IMG/VR virus record: IMGVR_UViG_3300042923_001044
Coordinates: 1-22,243 of that record
DNA: 22,243 bases
Strand: one strand, 5' to 3'
Source of the DNA: a virus
Part shown: positions 6,188 to 22,243 of the stretch, piece after piece
How the letters are laid out: every line of letters starts with the position of its first letter
Position numbering within the stretch: the stretch's first letter is position 1
The notes under the pieces: model-generated
What the model saw: the letters and a program-made list of their open reading frames with translations, nothing else
Told to the model about the DNA's origin: nothing
Databases searched by the model: none
Translations under genes and position numbers: made by a program

Positions 6188-6613
6188 ATGAGTGTAAAAA
6201 CATATGATCCAAAAAACTTAGTAGTTATTTTTGGCTTAGAGCGTATTCATGGATTTAGCGAAGGAGATATGATTACAGTAAAACCAAATGGAGACGGATC
6301 GACCATATATGTTGGAGCAGATGGAGAAGTTGGAAGAAGTATTGACCCTAATGGAACGTTTGAAGTAACTATTTCATTAGCGCAAACTTCTGCATCAAAT
6401 GATACATTATCTACATATCGTGAATTAGATAGAGCTACAGGAAAAGGATTATTACCTCTTGCAATTAAGGATTTATCCGGTACTACAGTTTTTACAGCTA
6501 GTCAAGCATGGGTTAAAAATCTTCCAGAAGCTAAAAAGGGTAAATCTATTGATGCAAATGAATGGACAATATACACAGGCAATGCAGATGCATTCGTTGG
6601 AGGTAACAGCTAA
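6188..6613 (+). CDS. Tail tube protein (DUF3277)
   Basis: The 141-residue protein fits DUF3277, the inner tail tube of this type of contractile phage. Recognisable parts are the KTYDPKNLVVIFG start, the HGFSEGDMITVKPNGDG strand and AQTSASNDTLSTYRELDR. LLPLAIKDLSGTTVF and a final WTIYTGNADAFVGG follow. The tube assembles as stacked rings on the baseplate. AAGGGGGTATTAATAA precedes the ATG. The stop shares one base with the start of the chaperone gene. Confidence 0.87.
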   Translation: MSVKTYDPKNLVVIFGLERIHGFSEGDMITVKPNGDGSTIYVGADGEVGRSIDPNGTFEVTISLAQTSASNDTLSTYRELDRATGKGLLPLAIKDLSGTTVFTASQAWVKNLPEAKKGKSIDANEWTIYTGNADAFVGGNS

Positions 6614-7092
6614 TGGCTTTGGGAGATAGAATTGACGTAACAGTTGGCGAAAACATGTTTCATATTATGATGTTTGAGCCATTTAGAGCTATGGAAGTAT
6701 TAGGGGATTTGCAAAAAGTCTTTTCCCCTATTATTGGGAAATTGGCTGGTGGTATTGCTAAAAATACAGAAGTATTAGACGTTGAAGTAAATGATATTAG
6801 TGGTATGATGCCAGCACTCGAAGGGGCATTTGCTTCATTAGCTGAAAATGTAGATGGTAAGACATTAAAGAACATATGTTCTATGTTATTAAATCAAGAG
6901 TATATATCTGTAGATGATGAAACAGGCAGAGCTAAAGCATTAACAGCCGGTATGGTTAATAAAGTATTTTCCGGTAAGATTGGCGAAATGACTAAATTAA
7001 TGTGGGAAGTTATCAAGGTAAATTATTCCGATTTTTTTACAACATTCAGCACCCAATTTGGCAATCTAGAGGAGTTCATCACAAAGAAATAA
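6613..7092 (+). CDS. Tail assembly chaperone (zero-frame, gpG-like)
   Basis: The 159-residue protein lies between tube and tape measure genes, the standard place for tail assembly chaperones. It is helical after an N-terminal beta segment, and FEPFRAMEVLGDLQKVF is a typical motif. Chaperones of this kind bind the tape measure and guide tube assembly; a longer, frameshifted form usually also exists. A T TTT TTT heptamer in this reading frame (7032-7038) near the 3' end would move ribosomes into the -1 frame, adding the following ORF. GGAGGTAACAGCTA precedes the ATG. Confidence 0.78.
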   Translation: MALGDRIDVTVGENMFHIMMFEPFRAMEVLGDLQKVFSPIIGKLAGGIAKNTEVLDVEVNDISGMMPALEGAFASLAENVDGKTLKNICSMLLNQEYISVDDETGRAKALTAGMVNKVFSGKIGEMTKLMWEVIKVNYSDFFTTFSTQFGNLEEFITKK

Positions 7093-7286
7093 ATATACCG
7101 GGTGAAATGCGAGAAGATTTTCAAAGTAAGATTTTTATACTACGTGCTGTAGATAGTCAAATGACCACTATGGCAGAAGTAAAAAGCGGTGCTATAAATA
7201 TAGTAGATTTACAATACATAATTGCTTATCGTGATATGTTACATGATATAGAAATAGCCAATACACCACAACCGAAAAGGGGGTAG
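7002..7286 (+). CDS. C-terminal part of the frameshifted tail assembly chaperone (GT-like)
   Basis: This frame overlaps the end of the upstream chaperone gene and is in its -1 frame. A GTG at 7002 is the earliest start, but it has no convincing ribosome binding site. The likely product is a fusion: 142 codons of the chaperone, a slip at 7032-7038, then 82 residues read from 7038. The fused length would be about 224 residues. The added part is mixed alpha/beta and contains INIPGEMREDF and IVDLQYIIAYRDML. The tape measure gene follows 5 nt later, as in lambda G-GT and Mu-type cassettes. Confidence 0.7.
   Translation: MGSYQGKLFRFFYNIQHPIWQSRGVHHKEINIPGEMREDFQSKIFILRAVDSQMTTMAEVKSGAINIVDLQYIIAYRDMLHDIEIANTPQPKRG
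7015..7038 (+). promoter_or_regulatory. -1 frameshift site with upstream Shine-Dalgarno-like stimulator
   Basis: The slippery heptamer T TTT TTT (7032-7038) is in phase with the chaperone codons GAT TTT TTT ACA. AAGGT (7015-7019) sits 12 nt upstream, within the range seen for Shine-Dalgarno-stimulated -1 frameshifting as in dnaX. Slippage opens the 3' frame that ends at 7286. I see no strong downstream stem by eye. Confidence 0.65.
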
Positions 7287-15243: not shown

Positions 15244-15270
15244 TTAATATTAAATTGATTTTAATATTAA
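15244..15270 (+). promoter_or_regulatory. 11-bp inverted repeat upstream of the acyltransferase
   Basis: TTAATATTAAA (15244-15254) and its exact complement TTTAATATTAA (15260-15270) flank a 5-nt spacer. The right arm touches the ribosome binding site AAGGAG of the acyltransferase. The arms contain only A and T, so a hairpin would be weak. It could be a protein-binding operator or reflect an insertion boundary. No clear promoter is seen. Confidence 0.4.
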
Positions 15271-15281
15271 GGAGAATATTT

Positions 15282-16301
15282 ATGGCAACACAACATATAA
15301 ATTTTATTGATACAGCAAAAGGAATTTGCATTTTATTAGTTTTATTAGGACATGTTTATGAAATTCCTTTGCCGTTATTTAAATATATTTATTCTTTTCA
15401 TATGCCAGCATTTTTCTTTATATCTGGATATTTATTTAATACTAGACATTTAAATGAAAGCTATTTTCAATTTTTAAAAACAAAATTAAAAAGATTAATA
15501 ATACCATATTTTTCTATGGGATTAATATGTTATGTTTTATTTATCGTATATCCAATCGTTACAATAAAAGATATAAAATTAGATTATTGGTATTTTCTAA
15601 AACCTATTATTGGAATATTATACTCGATAGGAACAACAGAGTGGATTCCAAACTGTTCCCCTTTATGGTTTCTTACCTGTTTGTTTTGTACAGAACAATT
15701 GTTTTTCCAAATTTTTAAAAACAATAAAAAAACAATATTATTTGTTATTACTATAGTAATAAGTGGGATTTTTGGATACTTGACATCTCTTTATATTCCT
15801 TTTAAATTACCTTGGAATATTGATACATCATTAACAGCAATATGTTTTTATGCTTTTGGATTTATGGTTAGAAGACGAAATTTAGTCAATTTAATGATTA
15901 ATAAAACATCTTATCTATTGTTTCCAATAGCTTTGCTTATAAATTATGTATCGATAAAATATAATCCAATTACGATAGTAAATTTAGATGCAAATAAATA
16001 TGGTAATATACTATTATTTTATTTAGGTGCTATCAGTGGAATAGTATGTATAATATTAGTATCTAATTGGATACTAAAATCAAGTATACTAGCATTTTTT
16101 GGCAGGAATACGATGCCAATTATAGGCTTTAATTATGCTATAAATACATTAGTGGCCAAAACAATAAATATATTTACTATTACAAATACATGGCCTGTAA
16201 GATTTATTTTAGTAATTATTTATTTTGTTGCATTACTATTTTGTTTTGAAAAATTTCGTAATAAATCAAATTTAATTAATAAATATATTTATGGTAAATA
16301 G
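15282..16301 (+). CDS. Membrane acyltransferase (acyltransferase-3 family), likely moron
   Basis: The 339-residue protein matches the acyltransferase-3 (OafA/Oac-like) family. FIDTAKGICILLVLLGH has the conserved His24, followed by YSFHMPAFFFISGYLF. About ten hydrophobic membrane segments follow, including AFFGRNTMPIIGFNY near the end. It lacks an extra SGNH domain. Family members transfer acetyl groups to cell-surface sugars, for example O-antigen modification by prophage Oac. ATG at 15282 is chosen because AAGGAGAATATTT precedes it; an in-frame TTG at 15255 lacks a site. The gene is more A+T-rich than its neighbours (10 of 60 bases G/C at 15481-15540; 21 of 60 at 16501-16560). It interrupts the tail-fibre region and has its own terminator. 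The substrate is unknown. Confidence 0.82.
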   Translation: MATQHINFIDTAKGICILLVLLGHVYEIPLPLFKYIYSFHMPAFFFISGYLFNTRHLNESYFQFLKTKLKRLIIPYFSMGLICYVLFIVYPIVTIKDIKLDYWYFLKPIIGILYSIGTTEWIPNCSPLWFLTCLFCTEQLFFQIFKNNKKTILFVITIVISGIFGYLTSLYIPFKLPWNIDTSLTAICFYAFGFMVRRRNLVNLMINKTSYLLFPIALLINYVSIKYNPITIVNLDANKYGNILLFYLGAISGIVCIILVSNWILKSSILAFFGRNTMPIIGFNYAINTLVAKTINIFTITNTWPVRFILVIIYFVALLFCFEKFRNKSNLINKYIYGK

Positions 16302-20519: not shown

Positions 20520-20558
20520 GCGTCATACATCTCCTTAATTCATTTACATTAGAGACAT

Positions 20559-20739
20559 ACTAGTAACAAAGCACTATATAAATACTTATTTACCAACAAT
20601 ATTAGTTCTCTAGTAAATAAATTTATCATAAATTAAACCCCTGTAAAATCAACGTTTTCAATACTCAGTAACGTTAAAAATTATTAAAAATAGATGAAAA
20701 CAATTACTATTAGTAACAAACTAGTAACTCAATAGTAAC
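20559..20739. repeat. TAGTAAC repeats, putative attP and integrase arm sites
   Basis: TAGTAAC occurs at 20561-20567, 20711-20717, 20722-20728 and 20733-20739, with a related CAGTAAC at 20666-20672. The last three begin exactly 11 bp apart, one helical turn. TAGTAACAAA is identical at 20561-20570 and 20711-20720. Between the two sets lies AACGTT-13 bp-AACGTT (20651-20675), a possible core. The segment from 20520 to 20741 is noncoding and borders the integrase stop, the usual place for attP. The core and function are inferred; the repeats are seen. Confidence 0.5.
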
Positions 20740-20741
20740 AC

Positions 20742-21797
20742 TTATTCTATTAAATCAACAGCTTTTTTTAATTCGTTTATATCCTTATGAGTGTAAATTT
20801 TTTCGGTTGTAATAAAACTATTATGACCTACTAAGTTTTTAATTGATGTACTATTTGCATCCGCATTGTTTAAAAGTGTTGCAAAAGTATGTCGGCAATC
20901 ATGCGGTTTATGTTCCATATTTAAATTTTCCATAATCGGTTTAAAAACATAATTGTAGTAATAATCATACAACATTTTTTTATTCTTGCTATTAACAATT
21001 AAATATTCGTTTTCTGTATCGATTCTATTTTTAAAATATTGTAGCACTTTGGAATGAATAGGGACTAACCGATTTTGTCCTGCTTCTGTTTTTGAATCAG
21101 TAACAATAAAATAACCTTCTTTAATATTTATATCACATAATTTTACATTTAACAATTCGCCAATTCTAACACCAGAATAAATCATAATTAGTATAGTATC
21201 GACAAATGGCAATGTAGGCTCTGTTTTAAATAATAAATCTATTTCAGATTGACAAAACGGAATCCTTGCGGTTTTATCTTTATTTTTGCCAATATCAATA
21301 TAATTAGAATAATCTTTATTAACTATATCATTTGTCATTGCATACTCAAATAATTGATTATATAAACTCTTCATTTTTTTTAATGTAGCATGTCCTTTGT
21401 CGCATTTCGATATAGCACTGTTTAAATTCGCTGTCTTAACGTCAATGAACTTCATCTTATGAAGTATACTAGAATTATTAAAAGCAGCGTTGTAACCGTT
21501 TTTAGTTGACGTGGCGGTATCTTCAAACTTGTTAGTCTTCCATAGTTCAAAAATTTCCTCAAAAGTAATTGAGTTATTACTTATAACATATGGATTTTTA
21601 TTAAACTCAGCTAATGCTAGTATAGCTTGTTCGCGTTTTTCATAATAACCTATAACTTTATATATTGGTTGTGCTTTTTCATTGAATCCTTCCGTTTTTC
21701 TAGCGACAAAAGGCTTTCTCCTGTTACCTTTTAATTTAAAAACTGAACCATATCCATTAGGGTAATCTCATACTGAACCATCTCGTTTCTTTAACAT
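20742..21797 (-). pseudogene. int: Tyrosine recombinase integrase with premature TGA at codon 10
   Basis: The frame runs 351 codons from ATG at 21797 but has a TGA at 21768-21770 (codon 10). Upstream of the TGA, MLKKRDGSV leads in; downstream, DYPNGYGSVFKLKGNRRKPF continues the usual N-terminal start of these integrases. TGG (Trp) would fit at the stop. No other ATG, GTG or TTG is in frame until codon 115, so restarting there would lose the N-terminal and much of the core-binding domain. The catalytic residues are intact: Arg211 (GVRIGE), Lys236, His299 and Arg302 (HDCRHT), His325 (GHNSF) and Tyr335 (EKIYTH). It would recombine attP with the host site. No strong ribosome binding site precedes ATG. 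It is either a recent nonsense mutation, a readthrough case, or a sequence error. Confidence 0.8.
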
Positions 21798-21816
21798 ATT
21801 ATAAATTTATTGTTCG

Positions 21817-22113
21817 TTAGAAATACTTTGACTTTCCTTTATGCCACTCTGGAACAATTGGTTTTTCATGCAAATATTGAAAATTTTTTCTGTAATGACG
21901 ATGGTTGTGTAAAGAAAAGTAAATATAGTTTTTATCATCAACCTCTAACGCTCGAAGAAAATAAGCCTTTTCTCCACCATGCATTACCGTTGCGCCAAAA
22001 ACATAGTCTTTTTCAAAATTAACTTCATATAATATTATTTGTAACATCGAAGCAATAGCCAAATAATCTTCCCGATCTTTATACTTTTCAATTAATTCTT
22101 TTTTATTAACCAC
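21817..22113 (-). CDS. Unrecognised 98-residue protein upstream of the integrase
   Basis: The protein begins VNKKELIEKYKDREDYLAIA and has a helical first half, then strands (DYVFGATVMHGGEKAYFLRA) and a His/Tyr-rich end (SLHNHRHYRKNFQYLH). I do not recognise it. GTG at 22113 is chosen since AAAGGAG (22123-22129 on the plus strand) is then 8 nt away. The earlier in-frame GTG at 22122 would touch the site. It is the first gene after the leftward promoter and lies 19 nt before the integrase start, so the two are probably one transcript. A regulatory or excision role is only a guess. Confidence 0.6.
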   Translation of the reverse strand: MVNKKELIEKYKDREDYLAIASMLQIILYEVNFEKDYVFGATVMHGGEKAYFLRALEVDDKNYIYFSLHNHRHYRKNFQYLHEKPIVPEWHKGKSKYF

Positions 22114-22156
22114 AGCAAACACTCCTTTGTCGAATTTTGTATTGTTTTGCGTTTTA

Positions 22157-22185
22157 TTGAAACTTACCTATAGTATGTGTACAAT
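22157..22185 (+). promoter_or_regulatory. Rightward sigma-70-type promoter
   Basis: TTGAAA (22157-22162), a 17-bp spacer and TACAAT (22180-22185) match the sigma-70 consensus well. The start of transcription would be near 22192, leading into a gene that runs off the right edge. It overlaps the leftward promoter, so only one polymerase can use the region at a time. Confidence 0.7.
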
Positions 22186-22198
22186 AAAGATAAGTCAA
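22170..22198 (-). promoter_or_regulatory. Leftward sigma-70-type promoter for the integrase operon
   Basis: On the minus strand TTGACT (22193-22198), a 17-bp spacer and TACTAT (22170-22175) form a good promoter. Transcription would begin near 22163 and read the 98-residue gene and the integrase. Confidence 0.7.
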
Positions 22199-22239
22199 TC
22201 GCGATTCGACAAATTAATAAAAAATGGAGATGCTTATTT

Positions 22240-22243
22240 GTGA
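22240..22243 (+). CDS. Possible start of a rightward gene, cut by the window edge
   Basis: TGGAG (22225-22229) lies about 10 nt before a GTG at 22240, downstream of the rightward promoter. An ATG at 22224 is also open to the edge but lacks a ribosome binding site. Only the start is present, so the product cannot be named. Position suggests an early or repressor gene. Confidence 0.25.

Follow-up and report, generated by a model that had tools for sequence, protein, structure and literature searches.

The integrase gene and its surroundings

The stretch analyzed here, referred to as the window, is a single IMG/VR contig record of 22,243 bases and belongs to a tailed phage. A contractile-tail gene block (head protease, major head protein, sheath, tape measure, baseplate, and fiber) is accompanied by lysis genes, and at the right end the minus strand encodes a tyrosine integrase (Table 1). 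The remaining window genes that were examined appear intact and none looks broken, so the break in the integrase is an isolated event. Elsewhere in the window, a tail assembly chaperone ORF (PHROG 1613; 6613-7286 region) overlaps an ORF at 7002-7286 in the −1 frame, with a T TTT TTT slip site at 7032-7038 inside the overlap; this is likely the ordinary programmed −1 frameshift of phage tail chaperones. A membrane acyltransferase (PF01757) at 15255-16301 adjoins the tail fiber gene and possibly alters the host surface in lysogens. A membrane-protein-like stretch is found near the integrase of L002, the nearest record by DNA, as well.

Table 1. Features at the right end of the window, with positions numbered from its first base.
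Feature	Position	Strand	Remarks
Tyrosine integrase gene, true extent	20742..21771	-	Start ATG 21771-21769; frame change 21762-21757; stop 20744-20742
CCC TAA, proline codon 4 then premature stop	21757..21762	-	The window has one base more than L002 here; motif of a known +1-slippery type
TGA flagged earlier	21768..21770	-	TG of the start ATG plus A of AGA; no codon of the gene
Weak Shine-Dalgarno-like GAGATGG	21778..21784	-	Aligns with GAGGTGG in L002; putative function
Intact downstream frame (N-G-Y-G-S-V...)	20742..21758	-	338 codons plus stop; catalytic R, K, H, R, H, Y present
Upstream ORF	21817..22122	-	95% identical in L002
TTACTAGT-type repeats	20558..20734		Downstream of the integrase; common to the window and L002

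The integrase matches the PF00589 catalytic domain (E=6.6e-24; 85 bits against a Pfam gathering score of 27.1), and R201, K226, H289, R292, H315, and Y325 fall in invariant columns of the family alignment. Judged by its sequence, the gene product is a tyrosine-recombinase phage integrase in which all catalytic residues are kept, in line with the intact catalytic domain described in an earlier note on this DNA. The start region reads GAGATGG ttcagt ATG AGA TTA CCC TAA TGG ATA TGG. Translation from ATG 21771 yields M-R-L-P, followed by TAA (21759-21757) at codon 5, and the +1 frame is open for 338 codons from AAT 21758. Owing to one extra base, the ribosome reaches TAA at codon 5 and the gene has no continuous reading frame from its start.

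Position of the start and of the extra base

The window and L002 share 91% identity across 608 bases, a region that takes in the upstream ORF and the N-terminal part of the integrase. The L002 integrase is read in one frame (GTG AGA TTA CCA AAC GGT TAT GGA), beginning a few bases 3' of GAGGTGG, and the GTG start aligns with ATG 21771. In this alignment the window has exactly one base more, located inside CCC/TAAT between the proline and asparagine codons. Across the 28 codons that follow the shift (codons 5-32), the two genes show no amino-acid changes and about eleven synonymous differences, which argues that the downstream frame was under purifying selection until recently. Beyond codon 33 the integrases diverge, and overall identity is 42%. 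The two phages, whose sheath proteins are only 28% identical, are nearly the same in sequence ahead of the integrase gene and through its N-terminal part, and then differ in the catalytic part (window 20742-22243 against L002 1440-3300), which points to mosaic exchange within the integrase gene. The TTACTAGT-type repeats are candidate arm-type attachment sites, and their sharing by the window and L002 along with the N-terminal part of the integrase would fit arm-site binding by that part.

Other relatives place the start at the same codon. The N-terminus is readable in 212 unique family members, and 198 of these have a canonical start exactly at the position of ATG 21771, before [KR]-x-P-N (171 ATG, 19 TTG, 8 GTG). 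A first set of relatives gave 89/89, although it had been chosen by a pattern that requires this start. The P-N-G-[YF]-G motif is read through in one frame by 134 sampled relatives, and in L221 ATGAGATTACCTAATGG corresponds to the first codons of the window minus one base. Integrases with an M-[KR]-[LN]-P-N-G-[YF]-G N-terminus, such as those of Propionispira arboris (L138), Butyrivibrio phages Idris and Arawn, and Fusobacterium phage Funu2, resemble the window protein in length, catalytic residues, N-terminal motif, and start position. They are encoded in one frame, whereas in the window codons 1-4 and the rest lie in different frames. The best integrase identity among sampled relatives is 66% (L138), and none above this value was found in 189 Propionispira-order genomes or in 17 genomes of the family of G562. 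Further searches with the upstream ORF (Propionispira order), with the major head protein (398 genomes), and by megablast of the window against phages left this maximum unchanged; such collection scans may leave out the window's own or near-identical records. These comparisons establish, at the sequence level, where the gene starts, that it has a single base more than its relatives, and that its downstream frame is intact and was under purifying selection in the past.

The earlier note had traced the gene from ATG 21797 through MLKKRDGSV, a TGA (21770-21768) taken as codon 10 that would have arisen from TGG, and then DYPNGYGSVFKLKGNRRKPF and an intact recombinase domain. That reading frame exists, and it contains no further canonical start until ATG 21455 at codon 115, as the note had said. 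The TGA, however, is no codon of the gene. The alignment with L002 and the 198 of 212 relatives identify it as the TG of the true start joined to the A that opens the following codon, and ATG 21797 is ATA in L002, with the surrounding DNA aligning to the L002 leader, so we reject a TGG-to-TGA change and judge the upstream ATG a chance occurrence. The proposed alignment of the N-terminal segment led to the same place, as the starts of relatives coincide with the codon overlapping the TGA, not with the upstream ATG. Genome-wide recoding of TGA, which the note had called unlikely, is discarded here as well, given that TGA terminates 4 of the 32 genes counted in the window. What survives is an interrupted, otherwise intact integrase and the consequences listed for it (a locked lysogen, recoding, or a sequence error); the mechanism is different, namely a one-base frame change at codons 4/5.

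Some relatives carry ATC, ATT, or ATA at the conserved start position (L152/L235, L246, L227, L171, L172/L176, and L177). Only L227 has a canonical start farther upstream in frame, and in most of them a purine-rich Shine-Dalgarno-like stretch lies at the usual distance. Such starts possibly represent damped initiation of the integrase.

Insertion, sequence error, or a shift-prone stop

We consider it probable that the extra base is either a recent one-base insertion or a sequencing or assembly error, the two taken jointly. The sequence has one base too many between codons 4 and 5 of the true frame, and translation from ATG 21771 gives M-R-L-P and terminates at TAA. If the mutation is real, the phage could not integrate, or the prophage could not excise, apart from low-level slippage at CCC-U; alternatively, the metagenome sequence would contain a one-base error. 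The intact downstream frame suggests that the change is recent. A single C inserted in an ancestral CCT AAT produces CCC_TAA automatically, and frame-broken copies are ordinary in this integrase family, to judge from the sampled sequences: 8 of 244 distinct family loci are broken elsewhere in the gene, four of them by a frame change and none at codon 4.

The main alternative is programmed or tolerated leaky +1 frameshifting at CCC_UAA, which would make full-length integrase at a low and perhaps regulated rate. In this scheme, tRNA-Pro would occupy CCC at codon 4 while the ribosome pauses at UAA, then slip by one base to CCU, and decoding would resume at AAU. We regard functional shifting as unlikely, despite several features that agree with it. 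A shift-prone codon is directly followed by a stop, and the product frame lies at +1. CCC_UAA is of the same site type as CCC_UGA in the tsh gene of Listeria phages PSA, A118, and A500, in which a +1 shift takes place and whose low-GC host rarely uses CCC (PMC5009743). CCC was also among the most slippery codons before a stop tested at the prfB site (PMC10885494), and in E. coli slippage occurs on CC[C/U]-[C/U] near the start codon, with CCC-C next to it shifting up to 1% (PMC4519876). In the window, CCC accounts for 7 of 178 proline codons. The synonymous-only differences in codons 5-32 likewise agree with a selected downstream frame. By analogy with these sites, the CCC_UAA arrangement could yield some integrase.

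A second integrase bears on both explanations. Scanning IMG/VR for the shifted start in its asparagine form retrieved L318 (GTG AGA AAT CCC TAA CGG TTA CGG), which encodes a complete integrase of the same family in its +1 frame and has the identical arrangement at the same codon. A general CCC-form scan of IMG/VR returned L318 again and no other integrase, and a leucine-form scan returned no integrase. L318 shares only 38% protein and 47% DNA identity with the window integrase, so its frame change is very likely independent. Recurrence at one codon argues against an insertion or error, as random insertion would rarely strike there twice, and so, by analogy, does a motif of a known shift-prone type. 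Coincidences expected at this site number well under 0.1, a rough estimate in which the family size in IMG/VR is assumed (probably hundreds to thousands of members) and the frame-change rate is about 1.7% per gene over about 1,000 bases. CCC is not rare among the L318 genes counted.

Against functional shifting, the site is confined, among the sequences sampled, to the window and L318. CCC_TAA is absent from about 240 other sampled family loci, in a sample whose members are at most 66% identical to the window integrase, and L002 reads in one frame. The shifted-start pattern was also sought in bacterial genomes, namely 391 from the class of L178 (a Lachnospiraceae MAG), 399 from the class of L153 (Virgibacillus), and 189 from the Propionispira order, and gave chance matches only; the matches L013-L017 and L334-L337 are likewise chance and not integrases. 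The downstream RNA folds no better than shuffled sequences (z of -0.16 and 0.95), giving no sign of RNA structure as a stimulator, and inspection by eye revealed no internal Shine-Dalgarno of the prfB kind. The resemblance to known systems is thus partial. Like the Listeria tsh sites, the window has CCC directly before a stop, a +1 direction, a phage gene, and a low-GC genome, but in tsh the shift occurs late in a structural gene and appends an extension, whereas the window site lies at codon 4, would be required for the whole protein, lacks conservation in the sample, and has a hypothetical product. The prfB site (CUU_UGA) shares the early stop and the need of a +1 shift for the whole protein, and differs in its internal Shine-Dalgarno, in CUU rather than CCC, in UGA rather than UAA, and in being conserved. 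Because the inserted C makes the motif by itself, and with neither stimulatory structure seen nor conservation in the sample, we favor an insertion or error over functional shifting.

Two other routes to an integrase carry far less weight. A start at ATG 21797 followed by TGA readthrough can be practically dismissed: the frame is open except for the TGA, but ATG 21797 is ATA in L002, the region aligns with leader DNA, and the start codon of relatives overlaps the TGA, such that rescue would need +1 frameshifting at CCC_UAA instead. It is also highly improbable that a downstream or non-standard start yields a usable shorter integrase. Some relatives apparently use ATT, ATC, or ATA, but at the normal start position; in the main frame of the window, the earliest start-like codons are two ATA, codons 36 and 40, with no ATG before codon 106. 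Products from these starts would be devoid of the conserved N-terminal part.

Consequences for reading integrase genes

If the extra base is a mere break or error, the locus serves as a caution that in-frame stops need checking against the true start, since the apparent nonsense codon here overlaps the start codon itself. It is doubtful, on present evidence, that some phage integrases are throttled by a "shifty stop" placed four codons past the start, such that only +1-slipping ribosomes make the enzyme, and that this arrangement has arisen independently at least twice, in the window and in L318. If CCC_UAA is indeed used, translational control of the integrase, and hence of the choice to integrate or excise, would be exerted within the first few codons.
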